Assembly (NCBI GenBank): GCA_030731845.1
Contig: JANQTF010000379.1
Span: 4,686-47,767 of the forward strand
DNA from: Bacteroidia bacterium
GTDB taxonomy: Bacteria; Bacteroidota; Bacteroidia; J057
Length of the DNA stretch: 43,082 nucleotides
Direction of reading: 5' to 3'
Within the stretch, counting starts at the first letter, position 1. Each line of letters starts with the position of its first letter. Below the pieces are notes generated by a model. It did not search any database. It was not told the origin of the DNA and saw only the letters and a list, made by a program, of their open reading frames with translations. The position numbers and the translations under genes are program-made. Shown here piece by piece: positions 37,886 through 42,411 of this stretch.

Positions 37886-38719
37886 TTATGTTGAAGGATT
37901 ATCCATCTGAATCTCCTGATGAATGTCTTTGACTTTCTCTACGGCCAATCCAGTCACCTCGGCAATGTCTGAATAGGTGAGGGCATTTACCAGAAAGGGC
38001 TTAGATAGCAGCATCTTTTTTGCCGTTTCTAATTGAGTCTGTGTTTTTCCCACGTCAACCCCTTCGAGATAGCGGAGGTCTTGAGTGAGGTCGTAAGTAA
38101 AAGCCATGTTGCGTGATTGTAAGATGATCTCTTTGTGTAAATTACGTAAGTTGGAGAGTACTTCCAACTGTTGCATATATTTGTCGATACGAACTCCCTG
38201 GTTTGAAAGTTCTCTGAGTCTGAGGAGAATTTGTCGGATGACATCGGCGGGTTCGTGACCACGGTAATTGCATAAAATAGATAGAATGATCACTTCTGGG
38301 TGGGTAGAATTTACGAATCCATGATAATCGAAATTCTTCAGGTTCACCAGATGGTAGCGGTACCAGAGGTCGGGGTCACTGATTTCAGATGACATGGATG
38401 CTACCTCATTACCAATATACAGCACATATTGCCTGAGTTGGAGTTTGTGCTTTCTCCTCAAAATAGCGGCGTACTCCAGCATCCGGTCCACCATCTCTGA
38501 ATCGTTTTTTGACTGAAACTCAATCTGGAGGAGGAAGTTCTTATCTATCTGCTCCGTTCTGACAAGGAGCAGAAAGTCCGGCCTCCTTTCGAGGGTGACT
38601 TGTACATCGAAAGGAATCACCTCCATGTAGGTGAGTTGTAAGCCAAGGACGCGGTCAATTAGCGCTGGGAGGATCTCCTCAATGTTTTCCTTAATGATTT
38701 TGTCGTAATCCTGAGCCAT
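37886..38719 (-). CDS. Rpn/YhgA-like PD-(D/E)XK nuclease-family protein
   Basis: A 277-aa protein of the Rpn (recombination-promoting nuclease, formerly 'putative transposase YhgA-like') group. The nuclease core is recognisable: Asp48 in RRPDFLLLV and Glu67-x-Gln69 in LQIEFQSKND, an arrangement of the PD-(D/E)XK superfamily in which Gln replaces the usual Lys. The rest is helical and ends in IAEVTGLAVEKVKDIHQEI, like a helix-turn-helix segment. I took the start at Met in MAQDYDKIIKENIEEI, which matches family N-termini; an ATG at 38809 overlapping the stop of the upstream kinase as ATGA would add 30 residues and run through a hairpin. These proteins are multicopy in many genomes and stimulate recA-independent recombination in E. 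coli. The gene lies between two related hairpins. Confidence 0.82.
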   Translation of the reverse strand: MAQDYDKIIKENIEEILPALIDRVLGLQLTYMEVIPFDVQVTLERRPDFLLLVRTEQIDKNFLLQIEFQSKNDSEMVDRMLEYAAILRRKHKLQLRQYVLYIGNEVASMSSEISDPDLWYRYHLVNLKNFDYHGFVNSTHPEVIILSILCNYRGHEPADVIRQILLRLRELSNQGVRIDKYMQQLEVLSNLRNLHKEIILQSRNMAFTYDLTQDLRYLEGVDVGKTQTQLETAKKMLLSKPFLVNALTYSDIAEVTGLAVEKVKDIHQEIQMDNPST

Positions 38720-38755
38720 GGGTTGTGTGTTGGAATTTGATTCTTTTCTAGGAAG

Positions 38756-38785
38756 GATCTCCGGGACTAGTAGGCCCCGGAGATC
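38756..38785. repeat. Hairpin just upstream of the Rpn gene
   Basis: A perfect 10-bp inverted repeat, GATCTCCGGG (38756-38765) and CCCGGAGATC (38776-38785), with a 10-nt loop. It lies between the ROK kinase stop (38806) and the Rpn start (38719). No U-tract follows on the minus strand. It shares the 9-mer GATCTCCGG with the terminator hairpin on the other side of the Rpn gene (37825-37833). Confidence 0.85.
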
Positions 38786-38805
38786 AGCCTCATATTTCGC
38801 AATAA

Positions 38806-39720
38806 TCATTCAACCAGCATCGCAGCTCCAAACACGCCGGCACTATCTCCCAATTTGGGGCGAAGGATGGGCGTGTACATCTTGTGATTGAACACATATT
38901 TTTCTACCTCGGCGACGCCACGATCGTAGAGCACACCGATATTGCTCACGCCGCCACCCAGCACGATGGCATCCGGATCAAGCAGGTTGATGATAGAGGC
39001 GAGTCCTTTGCCAAAAAACTCCACGAGCCGGTCGAGGGTGGCTGCAGCGTGTGGATCTGTGCCTGCCTGTGCGCGTTCCACGATTTCCTTGAGCTTGCGC
39101 TCCTCGCCAGAAATGCTGGTGTAATAGCGCTGCAAGTTGGGGCCCGACAAGATGGTTTCCACACAGCCTGTTTTTCCGCAGTAGCAAAGCCCGCCCGATT
39201 CGTCGAGGAAATTATGTCCCCATTCTCCGGCGATGCCCTGAAGGCCATTGAGCACTTTGCCATGCACCACGATGCCACCGCCAACGCCTGTGCCCATGAT
39301 CACCCCAAATACCACCTCGGCATTCGGCACTTGGTCGGGCACGATGCCGAGCCTGGCTTCGGCAAGGGCAAAGCAGTTGGCATCATTGGCCATGAGGATG
39401 CTGAGGCCAAGGGCCTTTTCGACATCATCCTTGAGGGGCTTGCCGATGAGGCAAGTTGTGTTGGAGTTTTTGAGCGTATTGAGCTGCGGATCGAGGGCGC
39501 CGGGCGTGCCGATACCGATTTTGGTAGGCGTGAGGCCTGTCTCGTCCTTCAGCATGCCGATGAGCTTGGCAATTTGTGAGACAATGTGCTCATAGCCTTT
39601 TTCTTGCTCGGTCGGCACACGCAGGCGGGCAATGGTTTGGTAGCGGTTGTCTGCATCTACCACGACAGCTTCGATTTTGGTGCCGCCAAGGTCAATTCCC
39701 CAAATGGGTTTCATATTCAC
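38806..39720 (-). CDS. ROK-family sugar kinase
   Basis: A 304-aa ROK kinase, phosphorylating a hexose or amino-hexose with ATP. The ATP phosphate loop is GIDLGGTKIE (Asp10, Thr14), the catalytic Asp113 is in ANDANCFALAEA, GTGVGGGIV is the second phosphate motif, and GIAGEWGH (Glu166, His169) binds sugar. Zinc ligands are His169 with Cys179, Cys181 and Cys186 in CYCGKTGCVE. Glucokinase, fructokinase and N-acetylglucosamine kinase are all possible; the ROK family alone does not decide. There is no helix-turn-helix N-terminus, so it is an enzyme and not a NagC-type repressor. Met3 is an alternative start. A minus-strand -7 box TACTTTTG lies at 39838-39845. Confidence 0.9.
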   Translation of the reverse strand: MNMKPIWGIDLGGTKIEAVVVDADNRYQTIARLRVPTEQEKGYEHIVSQIAKLIGMLKDETGLTPTKIGIGTPGALDPQLNTLKNSNTTCLIGKPLKDDVEKALGLSILMANDANCFALAEARLGIVPDQVPNAEVVFGVIMGTGVGGGIVVHGKVLNGLQGIAGEWGHNFLDESGGLCYCGKTGCVETILSGPNLQRYYTSISGEERKLKEIVERAQAGTDPHAAATLDRLVEFFGKGLASIINLLDPDAIVLGGGVSNIGVLYDRGVAEVEKYVFNHKMYTPILRPKLGDSAGVFGAAMLVE

Positions 39721-42112: not shown

Positions 42113-42411
42113 GGGGAAATGCCTCATAGCTGTCCGGTTAAGAAAGGTGCCAGTCGCTACGCGCCTGGATAGAGAGCCTGCATTGTTTCTACCGAGGTGT
42201 CAGTCGCTACGCGCCTGGGCTGAGAGTTCGGATTTCCGGCCAAAAGTCGAAGCGCATAGCGATTCGAACCTCGGTAGAATCCCGTCTGCCCGTCAGTATT
42301 GCAGGCGCATAGCGACTGCCACCTTTCCCAGGTCCTGTAACTCAACGCTACTTACCATAACAACCGCATCTTTGACGTTTACCGGACGGCTATGGGGAAA
42401 TACCTCACAGC
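42113..42411. mobile_element. MITE-like element with flanking direct repeats and inverted termini
   Basis: Near-identical 18-bp direct repeats, GGGGAAATGCCTCATAGC at 42113-42130 and GGGGAAATACCTCACAGC at 42394-42411 (2 mismatches), flank the unit. Just inside are inverted termini TAGCTGTCCGGTTAA (42127-42141) and TTTACCGGACGGCTA (42378-42392), which pair at 13 of 15 positions. The interior is a nested palindrome of four modules (see the separate repeat entry). No transposase or long ORF is present. The order direct repeat, inverted terminus, interior, inverted terminus, direct repeat is that of a non-autonomous insertion. An 18-bp duplication with mismatches is long for a target-site duplication, so this remains an inference. 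The right repeat overlaps the last codon and stop of the adjacent barrel gene. Confidence 0.6.
42142..42327. repeat. Nested palindrome of four 26-30 bp modules (two direct, two inverted)
   Basis: Copy A is at 42142-42167 (core CAGTCGCTACGCGCCTG), copy B at 42187-42217 with the same 17-nt core exactly 50 nt later, copy C at about 42249-42279 inverted (core GCGCATAGCGATT) and copy D at 42302-42327 inverted (core CAGGCGCATAGCGACTG). A and D match as inverted repeats over 26 bp with 2 differences; B and C share TTCTACCGAGGT plus most of the rest. The whole can fold into a long two-step hairpin, in DNA or RNA. There is no U-tract at its end. Confidence 0.92.

Follow-up and report, generated by a model that had tools for sequence, protein, structure and literature searches.

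A MITE family with IS4-type ends and an interior array of imperfect palindromes in a Bacteroidia genome

Structure and boundaries of the element

We analyzed a 43,082-nucleotide stretch of DNA (the window) from the draft genome of a Bacteroidia bacterium. It carries, on the minus strand, a gene for a 219-aa barrel-like protein with a weak match to OMP_b-brl_2, followed downstream on the same strand by a gene for a 648-aa protein of no confident family. A 270-bp element is inserted at the TGA stop codon of the barrel-like gene (42405-42407), which is left unbroken. The element has 17-bp terminal inverted repeats (TIRs) of the form CATAGC[TC]GTCCGGT.. and is flanked by an 11-bp target-site duplication (TSD). 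Four modules, each of which is itself an imperfect palindrome, occupy the interior in the order A, B, C-inverted, and D-inverted. The parts of the locus are as follows.

42114-42124, plus strand: left TSD GGGAAATGCCT, 11 bp, matching 42395-42405 at 10 of 11 positions
42125-42141, plus strand: left TIR CATAGCTGTCCGGTTAA
42142-42167, plus strand: module A GAAAGGTGCCAGTCGCTACGCGCCTG, partner of D; mean identity of 93% across full copies
42168-42186, plus strand: linker 1, a rapidly evolving segment in which copies share about 55% identity
42187-42217, plus strand: module B TTCTACCGAGGTGTCAGTCGCTACGCGCCTG; other copies have one to four such forward modules before the first C
42218-42243, plus strand: apical spacer between B and C, in two length classes among copies
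42244-42279, minus strand: module C, inverted variant AAGTCGAAGCGCATAGCGATTCGAACCTCGGTAGAA; 97% identity across full copies
42280-42300, plus strand: linker 2, 21 nt, fixed in length and free in sequence
42301-42327, minus strand: module D, inverted GCAGGCGCATAGCGACTGCCACCTTTC
42328-42377, plus strand: right arm from D to the TIR, moderately conserved (73% identity)
42378-42394, minus strand: right TIR CATAGCCGTCCGGTAAA (as read on the minus strand)
42395-42405, plus strand: right TSD GGGAAATACCT; position 42405 doubles as the third base of the TGA stop of the barrel-like gene

A preliminary description of this locus had proposed a MITE-like element at 42113-42411 with 18-bp flanking direct repeats. 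That interval includes the element, which itself spans only 42125-42394. The repeats are real (16 of 18 positions identical), yet the true TSD is only 11 bp long, and the excess consists of part of the TIR plus chance matches. The inverted termini described there are the 17-bp TIRs, and a repeat finder recovered the four modules: A and B as direct copies 50 nt apart (42145-42176 and 42195-42226, 88% identity), and C and D in inverted orientation. A is 92% complementary to D over 26 nt, and B pairs with the C region at 77% over 35 nt. While the pairing agrees with the proposal that C and D are inverted copies of A and B, C is a distinct variant, with CGAA..TTCG where the other modules have CAG..CTG. 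These changes lie on both sides of the outer stem and may represent one old event. Three module matches fall in the window, compared with 0.07 expected. As had been noted, the element encodes no transposase; its 270 bp hold only arbitrary open reading frames and have no coding capacity.

Copy number and mobility in the host genome

The host draft genome comprises 5.26 Mb in 390 contigs. BLAST returned 66 matches to the element; the module was matched 118 times with up to two mismatches (49 for a reversed control), and the TIR 35 times with up to one mismatch (none for the reversed pattern). These matches collapse to about 40 related loci, so the unit is not single. Seventeen of these loci lack a gene call on one flank, mostly because they lie at contig ends; a single copy may therefore be represented by two such halves in some cases.

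Among 18 elements in which two such ends could be paired, whether module-bearing or module-free, 6 are flanked by TSDs of 10 to 11 bp (10/11, 11/11, or 10/10 identical), compared with 0 of 306 swapped flank pairs. A clear duplication is absent from the other 12, and the copy in contig C181 has a perfect 11/11 TSD. C118 and C181b, two copies that occupy different sites, match each other at every position of 277 bp (100%) and have TSDs of 10/11 and 11/11. This identity points to recent movement, a reading that calls for caution in a draft assembly. These data show that the element is a MITE, with defined ends, many copies, and target duplications, and the mobility suggested in the preliminary description is supported by the number of loci, by the recurrent TSDs, and by full-length insertion sequences (ISs) with similar ends in relatives.

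We did not find the element in 59 other genomes of the same family, order, or class, none of them of the same genus, nor similar DNA in plasmids and phages. In viral contigs, the module gave three isolated single matches, which we took as chance, and the C module none. Neither the module sequences nor the TIR occurred in the literature searched, and in that literature this MITE family with IS4-type ends had not previously been found.

The modules might also be read as REP units of the REP/BIME type spread by a RAYT (Y1) transposase, since each one, an imperfect palindrome, shows a constant T/C asymmetry, and they occur as arrays in both orientations. Yet the single weak Y1 match in the genome has no module in its 3.4-kb locus, and modules with zero or one mismatch lie almost exclusively in element clusters, many with recognizable TIRs. 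Long TIRs and target duplications are, moreover, IS4-like. A RAYT-associated origin was rejected on these grounds, and the REP/BIME reading as a whole is highly improbable.

IS4-type ends and a candidate transposase

The preliminary description had called for a search for a full-length IS with the same ends, and one with similar ends is present in a genome of the same class (G092). This 1,408-bp IS has TATTGCTGTCCGGTAAA at both ends, and 9-bp duplications are readable in six of its copies. Its transposase matches PF01609 (DDE_Tnp_1), PF14294 (DUF4372), and NF033592 (IS4_1) above their cutoffs. The stretch YLRRWQIESLFKQLK in this protein conforms to the IS4-family motif Y(2)R(3)E(6)K (YREK; PMC2266710). 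A second genome of the class (G251) has 17 sites with CATTGCTGTCCGGTTAA, most of which fall at the ends of contigs; its assembly retains the IS ends and lacks the interior. Next to some of these sites, a reading as ..NQLILFDF-stop is possible, which resembles the C terminus of an IS4 transposase.

The element resembles these IS4-family DUF4372 ISs in the form of its TIR (CATAGCYGTCCGGTWAA, compared with TATTGCTGTCCGGTAAA and CATTGCTGTCCGGTTAA) and in target duplications of about one helical turn. It differs in being a MITE without a transposase gene and in its outer end bases, and the 9-bp duplication of the G092 IS, the best characterized of these, against 11 bp here, counts as evidence against the assignment. 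Among published IS4 subgroups, IS231 and ISH8 have CAT ends, with duplications of 10 to 12 and 10 bp, respectively, and the IS231 end consensus is CAT-------AA--TAA (PMC2266710). Our element agrees with IS231 in CAT, TAA, and an 11-bp duplication, and differs from it at positions 11 and 12, which are CG rather than the AA of the consensus; it has no transposase of its own by which to be typed. Published IS4-family ends and duplication lengths appear to fit the element, and a cognate DUF4372 IS of about 1.4 kb would be expected to carry CATAGCYGTCCGGTTAA ends.

Searches of the 390-contig host draft found no DUF4372 or IS4_1 transposase. PF01609 gave a single weak match there, to a fragment in contig C84; judged by eye, this is different and ISAs1-like, and we rejected it as the cognate transposase. 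The host draft may have dropped a repeated IS, as the G251 assembly apparently did; the IS has either been lost or failed to assemble.

Taken together, the element is very probably a gene-free MITE mobilized in trans by an IS4-type transposase, with an interior built as an A-(B)n-C-D array of imperfect palindromes. Going by the matching ends, the enzyme was most likely an IS4-family DDE transposase of the DUF4372 type (..GCTGTCCGGTWAA ends), which would have bound both TIRs in trans and excised the element. Its target at the end of the barrel-like gene would have been an 11-bp site flanked by G/C, duplicated on insertion.

Mobile insertion cassettes of Bacillus cereus such as MIC231, which are related to IS231, are likewise non-autonomous, have IS4-family ends, and are moved in trans. 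They often carry passenger genes; the present element differs in being a gene-free palindrome array.

Sister elements with the same ends

The host genome holds at least two further MITE types with the same ends, unrelated interiors, and no modules. One is about 165 bp long (L158, C171:32844-33010; also L166, L184, L185, L177, L178, and L172), with an interior rich in CATCCCAGCCTTCTCCC / GGGAGAAGG and, in one copy, a 10/11 TSD. The other measures about 290 to 322 bp where complete (L179, C358:8803-9124; L187 in C321; L183; and the outer element of L148) and carries CCCCGGGTTTCACCCGGGG palindromes; its copy in C321 has a truncated left end and adjoins a 15-bp direct repeat. Contig C91 has one of the module-bearing elements nested in a 638-bp element whose own TSD is 10/11. 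Since the modules are absent from the sister MITEs and outlast the decay of the TIRs, they are dispensable for transposition.

In named genomes, the exact TIR turned up in 19 stretches, most of them without a credible pair or an 11-bp duplication. One 140-bp pair, from a Hyphomicrobiales bin (L130), resembles a genuine MITE whose ends are similar. Another genus of the class contributes a 244-bp element (L215, G150:C2:281874-282117) with CATAGCCGTCAGGTTAA termini and an 11-bp duplication (10/11). As these two elements show, ends of this type also occur outside the host.

Conservation and spacing of the modules

In eight full copies, the modules show 93 to 97% identity, compared with 78 to 86% for the TIRs and 55 to 66% for the linkers and the apical spacer. 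Among 24 distinct C-D units, the mean pairwise difference is 4.7% for C (omitting one variable A/G position), 7.1% for D, and 38% for the 21-nt linker between them; selecting these copies for their resemblance to C and D favors conserved ones, but most have no mismatch in C and so lie far from the cutoff. Apart from the same A/G position, the core of C is identical in most distinct copies, and C is intact in several copies whose right TIR is unrecognizable.

Spacing is also constrained. The centers of C and D lie 53 bp apart in 25 of 27 units and 54 bp apart in the other 2, and forward modules are mostly 54 bp apart; a spacing of 53 to 54 bp is about five helical turns. The B-C distance falls into two main classes, 48 to 49 and 55 to 56. 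One to four forward modules precede the first C in each copy. The C-D unit is repeated in two loci, L171 (C283) and L144 (C63), the former having its forward module repeated as well; these arrays indicate that expansion of the interior is not limited to the B module. L148 (C91) and L141 (C53) have additional sequence inserted between B and C, at the apical loop, with the palindrome GTAGAGACAAGGCATGCCTTGTCTCTAC or a variant of it.

Two scenarios may explain this pattern. First, the family could be an ordinary decaying MITE whose modules are alike through recent amplification or gene conversion, without any function. Some copies are young, as the identical pair indicates, and conversion between repeats can homogenize sequences. 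Yet linkers of the same copies differ by 38% where C differs by only 5%, the TIRs are less conserved than the modules, and modules are intact where a right TIR has decayed. We regard this scenario as possible and rather doubtful. Alternatively, the array may represent dispersed functional sites, spread by the MITE and then kept by selection, either as phased imperfect palindromes to which a host DNA-binding protein attaches or as a regulatory RNA, a proposal that we hold with comparable reserve. Less firmly than for the MITE nature of the element, the sequence comparisons suggest that the array is conserved for a purpose other than transposition, with phased sites for a DNA-binding protein likelier than an RNA structure. 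Conservation of the primary sequence together with fixed spacing would suit a DNA-bound protein somewhat better than an RNA.

Evaluation of an RNA role

The long, imperfect interior hairpin that had been noted is strongly predicted (z of -8.1 for RNA and -5.8 for DNA, with none of 200 shuffles equal), although these values mainly restate the inverted repeats. Under an RNA reading, a transcript of the flanking genes would fold into a rod that protects the 3' end of the barrel mRNA or attenuates read-through. The strong predicted fold lies on the minus strand, that of both flanking genes, and similar rods are predicted for full copies on both strands. However, covariation does not accompany them: pairing is 91.2% compared with 90.9% after shuffling, and double changes number 2 compared with 1.3, in a test of low power since few pairs vary. 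Nor are the elements enriched behind genes; by a rough open reading frame call, they lie in 12 tandem, 6 convergent, and 5 divergent gaps. The element has no terminator-like U tract and no matching Rfam family, and C-D spacing is fixed where the internal loop of a rod would tolerate changes in length. An intrinsic terminator (GC hairpin plus U tract) is absent from the element, and only a weak, chance-level site lies outside it; a promoter search restricted to the sigma-70-like type found none in the element. The proposal of a structured transcript or read-through barrier at the 3' end thus found no support in gap orientation, U tract, or covariation, and we consider an RNA role unlikely.

Comparison with other module-bearing repeats

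The BOX elements of Streptococcus pneumoniae (PMC3049150) offer an analogy, drawn from architecture and not from sequence comparison. Like the present family, they are composites in which end modules enclose tandem middle modules of varying number, and they share IS-type TIRs, a predicted fold, and many intergenic copies. They differ in phylum (inferred) and in IS type; in our family, the middle modules take the form of imperfect palindromes, and the spacing of the C-D end pair is fixed at 53 bp. BrickBuilt of Porphyromonas gingivalis (PMC4596501) is also an intergenic MITE with an internal tandem repeat and a limited host range; its repeat is a spacerless tandem minisatellite of 23 nt, unlike the modules of about 50 nt in both orientations found here.

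The link between this TIR motif and DUF4372 IS4 transposases makes similar gene-free elements recognizable in other genomes. That modules stay nearly unchanged while linkers drift poses a testable question, namely, whether the interiors of bacterial MITEs are kept for a host function. If the family is only an ordinary MITE, it adds one further species-restricted example; if the reading as functional sites were true, a parasite would have given rise to a regulatory or architectural network across the genome, with about 40 loci and well over 100 modules.

Elsewhere in the window (37886-39720, minus strand), a gene for a 307-aa protein, Rpn/YhgA-like when judged by eye, overlaps a ROK-type sugar-kinase-like gene by 4 bp.
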